DNA of 23,477 bases, from positions 1 to 23,477 of IMG/VR virus record IMGVR_UViG_3300010883_014735. One strand, given 5' to 3'. Source of the DNA: a virus. Shown one piece after another: positions 1-5,450 of the stretch (position 1 is its first letter; each line of letters begins with the position of its first letter). Under the pieces are notes generated by a model. The model was not told where the DNA came from and searched no databases. It was given only the letters and a program-made list of their open reading frames with translations. The position numbers and the translations under genes were made by a program.

Positions 1-1217
1 CTCTTGCTGCTGAAAGTACCGCCGCCTTCTTTTTTTGTTGGGGATAGTCTTTTAAGCGCAGATAATATATTGTTTTCTTGTTGACAACTTTCTACAATCC
101 ATTCCTTCTCTTTTTTAGTTAGCACTGACCAAGTTTCAAACTCATACATACACTTTTTTCTGGCTGTCTTTTTTCCTGTAAGCTTTGTTAAGGCCCCAGC
201 CAGTATTAGTGATTCAACTACTTTTGAGCTTATTTTACCTGAAACATTTATCAAAAAGGAATACCAGTCTAGCTCCTCGCTGAACAGTCCAGTTGAGGTA
301 TACTCTTTTACTGAAGACAACAGCTTTTCTACGTGGTTCTTGCCGATATACTTTATATCTCCAAGACCAAAATTAACAGACTTATTATATATTTTAAAAG
401 ACCTGTTCAGCTTCTCTATTCTTGGGGGTTCTACCGATACTCCGCTAGATTTAGCGTCTGAAACTAGATCTTTTACCTCCTGTTGTGGGTCCGGTTTCCC
501 CCCAGAATAATACAGGTAGCTACAGTAGAAATCGAGCGGAAAATGTGCTTTACAATAAGCAGACCAGTAACCACAAATAGCATAAGAAACAGCATGGGAC
601 TTATTAAAAGCATAGCGATTAGATTTTTCGATCCACCCGAATATCTCCTCCGCTGCTTCTTTAGAAACAACATCTTTTTTAATCGCTCCTCTTAAGAAGG
701 TCTCCTTTACCTCTGTCATTAGATCGGCTTTTTTCTTACCGATGGCTTTTCTTAAATCGTCTGCCTCTCTTAAATTAAATCCGGCAATTACCTGAGCAAT
801 TTTCATGGACTGTTCTTGATATACAAGAACCCCCTGTGTAGACTTTAGGATAGGCTCAAGAGAATCGTCTATATATTCTATATTTTCTTTACCATGTTTT
901 CGATCAACATAATGCTGGGTCATGGATTTGCCGTCTACAATTGCTCTAAGACATCCCGGTCTCAATAGTCCAGACAGCGCTGCTAGTTCTTCAATATTTC
1001 TGGGTTTTAGCTTCTTTGCCCATGACCTACCAAGCTGACTCTCTAACTGAAAAACCCCTTTTGTTTTACCGTCGCATATAAGATCCCAAGTTCTTGAGCA
1101 GTCGTAGTTAACATTAAGTATGTTCAGGTTAATAACAGGGAGTCCGTCCTCCTTTAGTATAGAGCGGTCTCCGTCTATGTCAAACTCACATCCGCATTCA
1201 AACGTATAAATTGCCAT
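1..1217 (-). CDS. dnaE: DNA polymerase III alpha subunit, C-terminal half (split DnaE; runs off left edge)
   Basis: This frame opens at an ATG at 1217 and stays open to the window edge (405 codons), so the 3' end is missing. I translated it by hand. It continues DnaE where the N-terminal half at 2077-4011 stops: FQLES, a GLLRPG element, DRKHG, VLVYQEQ, LRKAIGKKK, then FNKSH followed by a helix-rich segment and a VNFGLGDIK motif. These correspond to the fingers domain and the region after it in bacterial DnaE. The catalytic palm aspartates are not here, so it must pair with the other half. An AAAAGG stretch nine bases upstream supports the start. It overlaps the exonuclease gene by 20 nt. The first 50 residues hold a CGC and a later C-x8-C that ordinary DnaE lacks. 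No intein sequence is visible at its start. Identity as DnaE is near certain; that it works as a separate polypeptide is inferred. Confidence 0.93.
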   Translation of the reverse strand, partial: MAIYTFECGCEFDIDGDRSILKEDGLPVINLNILNVNYDCSRTWDLICDGKTKGVFQLESQLGRSWAKKLKPRNIEELAALSGLLRPGCLRAIVDGKSMTQHYVDRKHGKENIEYIDDSLEPILKSTQGVLVYQEQSMKIAQVIAGFNLREADDLRKAIGKKKADLMTEVKETFLRGAIKKDVVSKEAAEEIFGWIEKSNRYAFNKSHAVSYAICGYWSAYCKAHFPLDFYCSYLYYSGGKPDPQQEVKDLVSDAKSSGVSVEPPRIEKLNRSFKIYNKSVNFGLGDIKYIGKNHVEKLLSSVKEYTSTGLFSEELDWYSFLINVSGKISSKVVESLILAGALTKLTGKKTARKKCMYEFETWSVLTKKEKEWIVESCQQENNILSALKRLSPTKKEGGGTFSSK

Positions 1218-1881
1218 CTGCAAAAGCCTTTTCAAATTTGGTTCTGGATGCCAGACCTCTGTGGAACTTCATAAACCTGATCATTATGTTCGCCGTATCT
1301 TTAACGTCTTGTAAGGCGTCGTGAGCATTCTCGCTTGACAACCCCAAGTATTTCCGCATATTATCCATGCTGATCGATTTTATATCTGGGTCATTTTCTG
1401 TCCAGAGAAACATCATATCCATAACGTCTATCTTGTTGACTTTACTGAACAATTTTTGATGTCCAGTTTTTTCGTTTAGTGGACCGTATTGTTTACACAT
1501 ACGATCTACTATCACCATATCAAATCCAAGAATGTTGTATCCCGCTGGTATGGGCGCGTACCATTGGGTCTTTTTGAAATTAAATTTGTCAACAAATTTT
1601 GTGAATTTTTTCCAGACCTGTTTAGGATGTGGGGCTTTAGCTAACTCTTCTCGTGTTTTGTGTGTTATCTCAAGAGCTTCATCTTCTATGGGATCAAGAC
1701 CCTGCTTGATTGCCTCCTCGTCATCAAGAATTGGACGAATTTCACTGTTAAAAAATCCTCCGGGCTGTGGTGTCAGCTTCCTACCATGTATCGCAACCGC
1801 AGCTATTTGAGTTGGCTGTGTCTTGTTTGGATTGACAGATCCGGTTTCAAAATCAAAAACTATAATGTCTCGATAGTTCAT
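1198..1881 (-). CDS. DnaQ-like DEDDh 3'-5' exonuclease (proofreading)
   Basis: The 227-residue protein has the complete DEDDh exonuclease set: FDFETG supplies D10 and E12, GYNILGFD supplies D121, and AHDALQDVKD supplies H187 and D192. This family removes mismatched 3' nucleotides using two metal ions and is the epsilon proofreading subunit in bacteria. The gene lies between the two halves of the phage DNA polymerase III alpha, overlapping the upstream 71-aa gene by ATGA and the downstream polymerase half by 20 nt. Proofreading for that polymerase is therefore the obvious role. I see no clamp-binding motif that I can call with confidence. A more general DNA or RNA exonuclease (RNase T-like) is the alternative, but the context argues against it. 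Confidence 0.9.
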   Translation of the reverse strand: MNYRDIIVFDFETGSVNPNKTQPTQIAAVAIHGRKLTPQPGGFFNSEIRPILDDEEAIKQGLDPIEDEALEITHKTREELAKAPHPKQVWKKFTKFVDKFNFKKTQWYAPIPAGYNILGFDMVIVDRMCKQYGPLNEKTGHQKLFSKVNKIDVMDMMFLWTENDPDIKSISMDNMRKYLGLSSENAHDALQDVKDTANIMIRFMKFHRGLASRTKFEKAFADGNLYV

Positions 1882-2093
1882 GTCGCTATACCTTTAATTT
1901 CCAAAAATTTTTCAACTGCTGCACTTAGGTTTTTGTACAACATGCTGAATTTAAATTTCCTATTATCAGAATGTACTTGGTACAATTCTTTTTTAATAGC
2001 TCTATCATAATAATCGTTGATTTTACAAAGAGAAATATCCTTGTATTCTATGGCACATCCATCCAGAAGTACCTCGTTATAATGTTCCTTCAT
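1878..2093 (-). CDS. Unrecognised 71-aa protein between polymerase half and exonuclease
   Basis: This 71-residue protein is not recognised. It is rich in Lys, Tyr and acidic residues and looks soluble and mostly helical, with no membrane segment, no metal-binding cluster (two Cys, not paired) and no nucleotide-binding motif. It is real by context: its ATG overlaps the end of the polymerase N-terminal half by 17 nt, and its stop overlaps the exonuclease start as ATGA, so all four genes should be translated in a coupled way. Lying between the polymerase and the exonuclease, it could be an adaptor similar in role to the theta subunit, but nothing in the sequence proves this. It shows none of the conserved intein blocks, so it is not an intein remnant. 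Confidence 0.75.
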   Translation of the reverse strand: MKEHYNEVLLDGCAIEYKDISLCKINDYYDRAIKKELYQVHSDNRKFKFSMLYKNLSAAVEKFLEIKGIAT

Positions 2094-4011
2094 GTATATC
2101 TCCAGTTAAAAGTTGATCCCTAACACCCATGAGCTTATCTAATAAATTAACGCCTAGAACGTCAAACTTGACATGACCCATTGCCTCAAGGTCTGTCATT
2201 TCCAACCCTGCTATTTTCCCAGTCCCGTTGGTTTCTTTTACCATGGGGCATGATTTGTCTAGATCTTTAGAAGATATTACAACGCCAGCCGCATGTTTCC
2301 CCTGAGATTTATAGGTTCCTTCGAGCCTTATGGCTTGTTCGAACAGCTTAGAATAATTACCGCCCAGAGTGCCATCCTCTTTTAGTTCACAGTATCCCTT
2401 TAGAATCTCTGGTTGGTAAGCCAGAGTCCACATTATAGAGGAGGGGCTTTCCATAGACTCCAATTGATCAGATATTTTATCTTCTTGGGGCAATGCTTTT
2501 GTTATGGTGTTCATCTCGTCAAATGAACAGGCATCATGAACTCTGAGGACTTCCTTTAGAGCACTCCTGCCTTGCAGCCTTCCAAATGTTACCATCTGAC
2601 ACACGCGATCTTCCCCATATTTAGAGCGTATGTAGTCGATAACTTCGTCTCTTTTTGTTGCGGGAACATCCATGTCTATGTCCGGCAAGGAAACATGGTC
2701 TTCCGTATTCCTACCTATATTATAAAACCTCTCAAAAATCAAGTCATATTCGATAGGGTCTACTTCAGTGATGCCTATTAGGTATGAAATTAAACAACCC
2801 GCAGCGGAACCTCTACCGGGGCCAGCGAGCCAGTTGTTTTCTTTAACATAGTTTATAATATCTCTAACTATTAGGAAATATCCAGAGAGGTTGGCTTTTT
2901 GTATTACATCAAGCTCCTCTTTTATTCTGTCTACATATTTTTGAGTGTCTTCTTCTGTGTTAACTTTATCCTGAGCTTTTAATCTTTTACGCCAGCCATC
3001 TCGACAAAGGTCTCGAAGATATTCTTCTTCTGTCATATTGTTTGGGCAAGAAAATTTTGGAAGCATAGGCTGTCCAAGTATATCATAATTCTCACAAAAG
3101 CTAGCTATTATAGAAGAGTTACGAATTTCTTCTTCTGTGTGCAATGATTCCATTTCTTCTGACGAGGGAATGTGGTAGTTATTTGATCTAAAAAAGCAGG
3201 ACATTCCTACGTCTTCATTATTTCTTATCTTATTCTCTACTTTTTTTAGAGTTGTTTTCATGGCAGAACAAAGGAGTATTCTTTGGTCTGCCGCGTCTTC
3301 TTTTTTGGGGTAGTGTGAGTCTGCCGTTGCAACACAGGGTATTTTTGTTTCTGCTGCGACTTTTCTTAGGCACTCTGCTATAAGTTCAGACGCCGGAAAG
3401 TTGTCCTTATCTATAAGCTGTATCTCTATGAAAAAGTTTCCAGAGCCAAATACTTTTAGATGACTGTTCGCAGCAAAGACGCACTCTCTTTTCCAATCCT
3501 TTTTTAAGTACTTAGCTGCTTCGTCATAACTGTGAGCCGAATATGCCTTCTTAACATCTTGGAATAAAACATTGGCAAGATCGCTACCGGGATGTCCACT
3601 AAAAGATATTAGACTGCCCTTATCTTCACCTATGATTTCAGACAAAAGTCTTAGGTCTAGTCTAGGTTTAAAATAAAATACGTCTTCTTCGTTACTTCTA
3701 GATGTAGCTTCAATTAACTTATTCCAACCTGTTAAATTCTTAGCTAATACTACCAAGTGGGTTAGAGTTTTATTTTCTTTGGTTCTTAGCTTGGCATCTT
3801 TTGATATATAAAACTCGCATCCTAAAATTGGTTTTACATTCTTCTCTCGCATGCTCCTGACAAACGAAACGGCTCCAGAAATCGTGCCGTGATCTGTCAT
3901 CGCACAGGAGTCATAGCCAAGCTCCACGCAACGGTCTGCAACCTGTGGGGGCTTCGAGAGACCGTCCAACAGGCTATAATGAGTATGCAGATGTAGAGGA
4001 ATCCAAGTCAT
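2077..4011 (-). CDS. dnaE: DNA polymerase III alpha subunit, N-terminal half (split DnaE: PHP domain and palm)
   Basis: These 644 residues are the first half of a bacterial-type replicative polymerase. The PHP domain opens with HLHTHYSLLDG (H7, H9, D16) and continues with TDHG (H41), GCEFY (E66), H85, SGH (H140) and DSH (D231, H233), so all nine PHP metal ligands seem to be kept. The polymerase site follows: GPGRGSAAG at 397-405, PDIDMD at 443-448 (catalytic D446 and D448) and VKFDVLG at 614-620 (third catalytic Asp, D617). The protein stops 27 residues after that last Asp, whereas DnaE is normally about 1,100-1,200 residues. The fingers and the rest are encoded by a separate gene at 1-1217. 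The ATG lies one base after the stop of the upstream nuclease gene. I see no intein-like C-terminal extension. Confidence 0.95.
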   Translation of the reverse strand: MTWIPLHLHTHYSLLDGLSKPPQVADRCVELGYDSCAMTDHGTISGAVSFVRSMREKNVKPILGCEFYISKDAKLRTKENKTLTHLVVLAKNLTGWNKLIEATSRSNEEDVFYFKPRLDLRLLSEIIGEDKGSLISFSGHPGSDLANVLFQDVKKAYSAHSYDEAAKYLKKDWKRECVFAANSHLKVFGSGNFFIEIQLIDKDNFPASELIAECLRKVAAETKIPCVATADSHYPKKEDAADQRILLCSAMKTTLKKVENKIRNNEDVGMSCFFRSNNYHIPSSEEMESLHTEEEIRNSSIIASFCENYDILGQPMLPKFSCPNNMTEEEYLRDLCRDGWRKRLKAQDKVNTEEDTQKYVDRIKEELDVIQKANLSGYFLIVRDIINYVKENNWLAGPGRGSAAGCLISYLIGITEVDPIEYDLIFERFYNIGRNTEDHVSLPDIDMDVPATKRDEVIDYIRSKYGEDRVCQMVTFGRLQGRSALKEVLRVHDACSFDEMNTITKALPQEDKISDQLESMESPSSIMWTLAYQPEILKGYCELKEDGTLGGNYSKLFEQAIRLEGTYKSQGKHAAGVVISSKDLDKSCPMVKETNGTGKIAGLEMTDLEAMGHVKFDVLGVNLLDKLMGVRDQLLTGDIHEGTL

Positions 4012-4012
4012 T

Positions 4013-4543
4013 CTAAAGTCCTAGCTGGTCAAGATTCTTGTACGGCAAGTTGTAACAATCGGTTAACACCTTCCATCCGTTTGAGGGGTCTACGTCACCC
4101 TTTGCATAGAAGGTCGCTTGTTTAAAATACTCTGTTGAATTTTTTTGTCCGCATATCCAAGCTTTAACTGGTTTGTCACCACGAAATTGAATACTTACAA
4201 ACACATAGAAGTCTGGGTTTTGATGTAGGCTGGTATGGGCAACGCTAGCATCATAAAAATCTTTAGGGGGAACTGTCCTACGCTTGGTTTTTATCTCTAT
4301 AGTTTTGTTCCCAAGCACCAAGTCGTGATTATATTTTTCTTCACCTCTTTTATTGCTAACTATTTTCGCGCCAATATACTCAGCAACAATTGATTCCCCT
4401 AAGTAGCCAGCAAAATTTCCTTTTCCTTTTAGAATAGAATTTTTTATTTCTCCCAATCTTTTTGCCTTGCCTTTTGCAGACTTCACCATCGCTTCGGTGA
4501 AGGGGGCTTCAACAATGTTACTTCGTTCTGTTGAATTTTTCAT
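4013..4543 (-). CDS. PD-(D/E)XK-type nuclease, function unknown
   Basis: The 176-residue protein carries the spaced signature of a PD-(D/E)XK restriction-like fold: a helix with GES (E50), HDLVLG (D74) and then TIEIKTK (E83, K85). Nothing outside that core is recognised. The fold is used by restriction enzymes, resolvases and phage end-processing nucleases, so the substrate cannot be assigned. The gene sits between a putative dehydrogenase and the split polymerase, one base before the polymerase start, which favours a role in replication or repair. A longer version starting at a TTG at 4564, with GAGG just upstream, is possible. I preferred the ATG at 4543 although no good ribosome site precedes it, so the start is uncertain. 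Confidence 0.68.
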   Translation of the reverse strand: MKNSTERSNIVEAPFTEAMVKSAKGKAKRLGEIKNSILKGKGNFAGYLGESIVAEYIGAKIVSNKRGEEKYNHDLVLGNKTIEIKTKRRTVPPKDFYDASVAHTSLHQNPDFYVFVSIQFRGDKPVKAWICGQKNSTEYFKQATFYAKGDVDPSNGWKVLTDCYNLPYKNLDQLGL

Positions 4544-5450
4544 AAATATATCGTGCTGCTGCAACGTCCTCTATAGCTAGTCCTGTGGCATCGAATAGTG
4601 TTGTTAGAGCGCCGTCCATCTCCACTCTCCCCTGAACTATCTCTGCTAGCGGCGACCATATCTGTGAGATTTTACTTTTCTTAGCGTATTGTATCTCCCC
4701 AGAGTGGGAACACTGAACCCACTCATCGTAGGAAACTAGGTCTACATTGTCAAGGACGCATGGGTGCAATTCTCTTTTTCCTTCTGCGTCAGCACCAACA
4801 GCATTAATGTGGACTACGGGTTTTAGATCCTCGTACTTTATGAAGGGCTTTCTGGAAGGCGTTAGAGTTGTAACTATGTCAGAATCCCACAGACAATCTT
4901 CCAGTGTTTTACAAACTTCTACCTTGATAGGCTCTGGTAAATAGTCAAGACTGTCCTTTACTGCGTTGGCTCTATCTTCGCTAAGATCAAAGAGCTTTAT
5001 AGTTTTTATATCTCTGACAGCCAACACCGCCTGAATTTGGCGAAGGGTTTGATGTCCACACCCTATAAATGCTGCCGTTCTGGAATAAGTACGGGATAGA
5101 TACCTTGTGGCGACCCCCGTCACAGCAGCCGTTCTAATAGCGGTAAGAGTTTCTGCATCTAGAACAGCTAGCAGATCTCCAGTTTCGATATCGTTGATCA
5201 TCACCATAGCAAAGATGTTGATCTTGCCCGCCTCCTTGACACTGAGTCCGGCCCATTTGATTCCTGCCGTGTTGCCTACTACTGCTGGCATTGCCCGAAA
5301 GTCCCCGCTTGGAACATTCATGTATACCTTTGGCGGCATTTGTGTGTCGTCAATGTTTTTAAATAGGTCTTCTACAAGCTCTATACAAGCTGGTACTGAA
5401 AGTAAGTCTGCCACTTCGTCGTTGCTAAAATGTTTAACCGGGAGCATCAT
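4518..5450 (-). CDS. Ornithine cyclodeaminase/mu-crystallin family NAD-dependent enzyme
   Basis: At 310 residues this matches the full length of the family, whose members include ornithine cyclodeaminase (ornithine to proline plus ammonia), archaeal alanine dehydrogenase, ketimine reductase and SbnB-type siderophore enzymes. Visible family elements are FRAMPA (R52), GIKWAG (K65, the likely catalytic Lys), AIRTAA (R106), a Rossmann motif IGCGHQ at 129-134, GADAEGKREL (D221, the likely general base) and FDATGLAIEDVA near the C-terminus. No active-site residue that I can place is missing, so the enzyme looks functional, but the sequence does not tell which substrate it uses. It overlaps the upstream Cas4-like nuclease by 17 nt and extends into the start of the next nuclease gene. 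It is a metabolic enzyme embedded in a replication operon, probably taken from a cellular genome. Confidence 0.9.
   Translation of the reverse strand: MMLPVKHFSNDEVADLLSVPACIELVEDLFKNIDDTQMPPKVYMNVPSGDFRAMPAVVGNTAGIKWAGLSVKEAGKINIFAMVMINDIETGDLLAVLDAETLTAIRTAAVTGVATRYLSRTYSRTAAFIGCGHQTLRQIQAVLAVRDIKTIKLFDLSEDRANAVKDSLDYLPEPIKVEVCKTLEDCLWDSDIVTTLTPSRKPFIKYEDLKPVVHINAVGADAEGKRELHPCVLDNVDLVSYDEWVQCSHSGEIQYAKKSKISQIWSPLAEIVQGRVEMDGALTTLFDATGLAIEDVAAARYIYEKFNRTK

Follow-up and report, generated by a model that had tools for sequence, protein, structure and literature searches.

In the DNA analysed here, a virus record of 23,477 bases taken as a whole (hereafter, the window), the C-family DNA polymerase DnaE is encoded by two genes, between which lie a gene for a 71-aa protein and a gene for a DEDDh exonuclease. 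Because this arrangement is old and both halves have been kept intact, it is highly probable that the split DnaE works as a two-piece polymerase and is not a broken gene. The split pattern is widespread, well beyond the window record. We consider it likely that the two halves would assemble non-covalently into an active two-subunit replicase, which would recruit the exonuclease encoded together with it as its proofreader.

All recognisable genes of the window lie on the minus strand. The features relevant to the split polymerase are as follows:

4013..4564, minus strand: 183-aa gene upstream of the N-half, without a Pfam match
4011-2077, minus strand: N-half of DnaE (PHP, thumb/palm), 644 aa; Pfam matches PHP PF02811 and DNA_pol3_alpha PF07733
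2077..2163, minus strand: end of the palm, with the C-terminal tail that closes the N-half; the third catalytic Asp, then 27 residues and the stop
1878..2093, minus strand: gene of the 71-aa protein, between the DnaE halves; an open reading frame with no confident family match
1881-1198, minus strand: DEDDh 3'-5' exonuclease (DnaQ-like), 227 aa; RNase_T at 2.8e-16; phrog_192, DNA polymerase exonuclease subunit
3..1217, minus strand, ATG at 1217: C-half of DnaE (fingers, HhH); Pfam DNA_pol3_finger PF17657 and HHH_6 PF14579
1050..1217, minus strand: C-half lead, with 55 residues ahead of FQLES and then its F; carries a CGC motif

The frames and their order are as the initial annotation had described them, and the overlaps that it had claimed between neighbouring genes are borne out: 17 nt between the N-half and the 71-aa gene, 4 nt (ATGA) between the latter and the exonuclease, and 20 nt between the exonuclease and the C-half. 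These overlaps suggest translational coupling across the four genes. The neighbourhood of DnaE is a replication and nucleotide block, with genes for a DnaB-like helicase, Toprim primase, RecA, dNMP kinase, dUTPase, class II RNR, dCMP deaminase and PhoH. Relatives of the 183-aa gene are found within the same replication block and, in phages with a fused polymerase, upstream of the exonuclease. The window also carries a gene of the Ornithine cyclodeaminase/mu-crystallin family (5450-4518) amid the replication block, present in just a few close relatives, and a phage-borne Fe-S_biosyn (iron-sulphur cluster biosynthesis) gene (7977-7642).

A key question is where the polymerase is cut. The PHP, palm, fingers and HhH domains (Pfam PF02811, PF07733, PF17657 and PF14579) follow one another in DnaE order across the two halves. 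By sequence, the N-half reaches residue 627 of Taq DnaE, and the C-half resumes at ~629-645. AlphaFold2 models of each half alone had pLDDT values of 92.6 (N-half) and 89.5 (C-half); in VIA-align comparisons with E. coli DnaE, the predicted N-half aligned with residues 4-582 (Z 35-39) and the predicted C-half with residues 570-1073 (Z 22.6, rmsd 8.6 over 462 residues). Each half is thus predicted to have the bacterial DnaE fold, and together the models tile E. coli DnaE. Since the halves align in this way, the cut is placed in the palm-fingers linker, past the third catalytic Asp, at approximately E. coli residues 570-582.

The palm aspartates D444 (2682-2680), D446 (2676-2674) and D617 (2163-2161) are invariant among the 49 N-halves compared, many finger residues and finger motifs are invariant among the C-halves, and the DEDDh residues are kept, so that the catalytic residues are present as the initial annotation had proposed. 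It had also placed the end of the N-half just past the third palm Asp and the resumption of the C-half, with its own ATG, at FQLES; indeed, D617 lies 27 residues ahead of the stop, and FQLES begins at residue 56 after the ATG at 1217. Its claim that both frames are intact holds in the window for the N-half, but not for the C-half, whose frame is still open where the window stops, at base 3. Its complete frame of 551 aa was found in a 37-kb contig that is identical to the window over all four genes (L002:6004-7659); it ends in an OB fold, past the window end, and is followed by one further gene and then by an SSB-like gene. Some features vary among the relatives. The CGC motif at the N-terminus of the C-half (window 1217-1050) is common to part of the clade, e.g., L004, L061 and L077. 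The PHP domain is full in the window lineage and ~100 residues shorter, with changed metal-ligand residues, in the L020-type and L021-type N-halves. In one relative (L155:4274-6264), the N-half itself apparently consists of two overlapping frames, with a break near mid-palm.

To assess how far the split extends, IMG/VR was scanned with both halves and two relatives, which revealed many related loci; once sequences within 5% identity had been removed, the in-group comprised 97 polymerases, and these were monophyletic with respect to bacterial and other phage DnaE (SH-aLRT 100). The breakpoint and the gene order, for which the initial annotation had suggested a search of phage and metagenome proteins, are both shared by 94 of the 97 lineages, every one of the 94 having the exonuclease between the halves; the remaining three encode a single chain. 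An assembly artefact was rejected because the same cut recurs in 94 lineages that differ by >5%. The stop-to-start gap between the halves ranges from 612 to 3858 bases among the split lineages, and the distance from N-half to C-half is ~6.8 kb, as reckoned from contig coordinates, in L007 and L009. Other genes found in the gap of relatives (HNH-like, GIY-YIG-like, sugar-metabolism and methyltransferase genes, judged by eye from the sequences) were considered as a cause of the split and rejected: they are sporadic, and only the exonuclease is common to the whole clade. A phage collection contained no record with as much as 60% identity to either half, and thus no close cultured relative, and no description of this phage clade was found in the open-licence PMC literature.

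The exonuclease has all of the DnaQ-like DEDDh motifs (DxE, N..(F/Y)D and H....D). D121, H187 and D192 are kept in 90/90 sequences, and D10 and E12 in 89/90, the single exception having a gap there. Comparison with the PDB gave weak sequence matches only, the relevant one being a PolC-type chain. The 71-aa gene is kept in 41 of the 94 split lineages, and its product has no confident Pfam or PHROG match; a theta-subunit-like role was considered for it, with nothing found in support.

Another important question is whether the ends of the halves hold an intein or an intron. Among the in-group lineages measured, the N-half ends 15-32 residues past the Asp, L004 alone differing (43 residues), and the C-half mostly has 20-60 residues ahead of FQLES, much of this stretch being alignable to the normal linker. 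No intein motifs were seen at the palm-fingers cut, and Rfam gave no match in the window. From these lengths, the alignment and the Rfam result, we rejected both an intein and an intron at this position. This agrees with the initial annotation, which had seen no intein at the split and a break unlike the cyanobacterial one: the break lies in the palm-fingers linker and leaves no room for an intein. Five relatives do have apparent split inteins, at FN(K/R)|SHS in the fingers, the two intein parts being separated by an endonuclease-like gene:

L088:6001-10687, split intein at FN(K/R)|SHS
L107:8479-12112, split intein at FN(K/R)|SHS
L123:9515-12340, split intein at FN(K/R)|SHS
L136:3530-6443, split intein at FN(K/R)|SHS
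L160:8692-11548, split intein at FN(K/R)|SHS

In four of these five, the polymerase is consequently in three pieces. Fractured genes, in which a phage gene lies in pieces with split inteins and an endonuclease gene between them, were reportedly described by Dassa in 2009; the five relatives show that arrangement, whereas the palm-fingers cut of the clade has no intein. The C-half fingers also have apparent in-frame inteins, located past RPG, at L107:8479-10062, L111:8331-10679 and L209:11700-13818.

These data raise the question of whether the halves become one chain, act apart or are simply decaying. A hidden split intein that joins them after translation, as in cyanobacterial DnaE, might be expected in a clade with five split-intein members; however, the N-tail and C-lead are too short for one, the C-lead is largely alignable to the linker and the clear inteins of the clade sit elsewhere, and we give this explanation almost no credence. 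It is extremely unlikely that the halves are joined by an intron at the RNA level or by programmed frameshifting. The HNH-like and GIY-YIG-like genes in the gap of some relatives would fit such a mechanism, as would Bacillus phage KLEB27-3, which has an HNH gene at its break, but the gap genes are conserved, mutually overlapping and under purifying selection, Rfam gave no match in the window, and the ~6.8 kb between the halves in L007 and L009 excludes frameshifting or read-through there. Decay of the split gene, with the host polymerase copying the phage, could be read from the truncated PHP and changed metal-ligand residues of many relatives. We rejected it as highly improbable, given the strong purifying selection seen in a dN/dS of 0.04-0.12 for both halves (0.02-0.12 with the exonuclease included) in pairs with estimable dS, dS being saturated for the N-half and exonuclease in one pair, together with the invariance of the catalytic residues and the conservation of the split over 94 lineages. 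Moreover, searches for DNA_pol_A, DNA_pol_B and the beta clamp found none in ten contigs of 37-231 kb; as these contigs are fragments, outside which another polymerase could lie, the result is supportive, not final, evidence that the split DnaE is the only recognisable DNA-copying enzyme of these phages in the contigs tested. The alternative that the halves do separate jobs, with no common active site, is in keeping with the confident predicted folding of either half alone and with their being separate genes, able to lie 6.8 kb apart; the invariance of both palm and finger motifs and the three fused forms, which join the halves in normal order through a short linker, make it very unlikely. The evidence on selection, catalytic residues and spread, together with the lack of any other recognised polymerase in the ten contigs, therefore supports the two-piece polymerase that the initial annotation had preferred to decay.

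The three fused forms (L088, L197 and L199) have the same polymerase as a single chain across the junction, each preceded by an exonuclease gene, and bear on the history of the split. Concatenated trees, like those of the palm alone and of the fingers alone, nest them within the split clade, and their linkers (41 residues in L088 and, by a count by eye from sequence, 43 in L199) are shorter than those of every out-group unsplit DnaE measured (45-58 residues). For these reasons, one split followed by one re-fusion is favoured, not proven: a single ancient split would have occurred at the base of the clade, with later re-fusion in one sublineage. The opposite reading, in which the fused condition is ancestral and the split lineages form a sister group to the fused ones, without any re-fusion, was not firmly rejected by AU tests of the split lineages as one clade (p-AU 0.0498, and 0.166 with long branches removed), and it would accommodate the finding that PHP is full-length in the fused forms and short in their nearest split relatives. 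This juxtaposition leaves the split and re-fusion history untidy. We nevertheless regard fused ancestry as rather unlikely, not only from the three tree types and the linkers but also because outgroup-free rooting preferred, by a small margin, a root outside the fused branch (the fused branch ranked fourth) and because L088 has the 71-aa gene, which only some members of the clade carry.

DnaE in pieces is already known from phages. A close likeness is in the cultured Mycobacterium phage Fowlmouth (NC_048734), in which gp85 and gp86, two intact C-family genes both annotated as DNA polymerase, have the same palm-fingers breakpoint; they differ in overlapping directly (ATGA), without an exonuclease between them, and in sequence they are far from the clade. 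No paper on the Fowlmouth split polymerase was found in the open-licence PMC literature. In other cultured phages with DnaE in pieces, the break lies before the third Asp (Bacillus phage G, gp329/gp331/gp339) or before the LPDIDTD motif (Cellulophaga phage phiST, gp044/gp045), and in Bacillus phage KLEB27-3 it lies slightly downstream, after FQIE. A split minimal PolIII alpha was described for group 2.2 jumbo phages by Iyer and colleagues, its two proteins being proposed to reconstitute the enzyme (PMC7824862). That polymerase is likewise a phage PolIII alpha made as two separate proteins, but it is a minimal core present beside a family B polymerase, with its genes distantly located (PMC7824862), whereas the present clade has kept PHP, fingers, HhH and OB and showed no family B polymerase in the ten fragment contigs. 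According to the passages of PMC6390638 and PMC3919608 that cite Wu 1998 and Caspi 2003, cyanobacterial DnaE is encoded on two genes with a split intein; the likeness ends at the two genes, since the breakpoint is another one and an intein is needed there, none being present at the cut of this clade.

Taken as a two-subunit replicative polymerase of the phage, the enzyme would receive its PHP, thumb and catalytic palm from the N-half and its fingers, HhH and OB from the C-half. The genes of both halves belong to one compact operon-like block, with that of the DEDDh proofreading exonuclease in between. The halves would pair non-covalently along the native DnaE palm-fingers interface, and the active site would be complete only in the two-chain complex. 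The exonuclease may join as the proofreading subunit, and encoding all three together would help assembly, while a chain break in the palm-fingers linker would cost little. If the phage encodes no clamp, the host clamp may be used. More tentatively, we can suggest an ancient three-subunit replicase core (N-half, exonuclease and C-half), in which the middle position of the proofreader may have been selected to couple the assembly of polymerase and editor, with the split and then the re-fusion occurring at the palm-fingers junction; this extension is possible, and we hold it with far less confidence than the two-subunit enzyme.

The placement of palm and fingers on separate polypeptides offers a sharp test of how far a core enzyme can be divided and yet copy a genome. 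Because the enzyme occurs naturally in this clade both split, in many forms, and fused, in three, the effect of splitting is directly measurable, and the palm-fingers cut provides a natural breakpoint for engineered split polymerases. Annotation in which dnaE is expected to be one gene will misinterpret such enzymes in uncultured phages.
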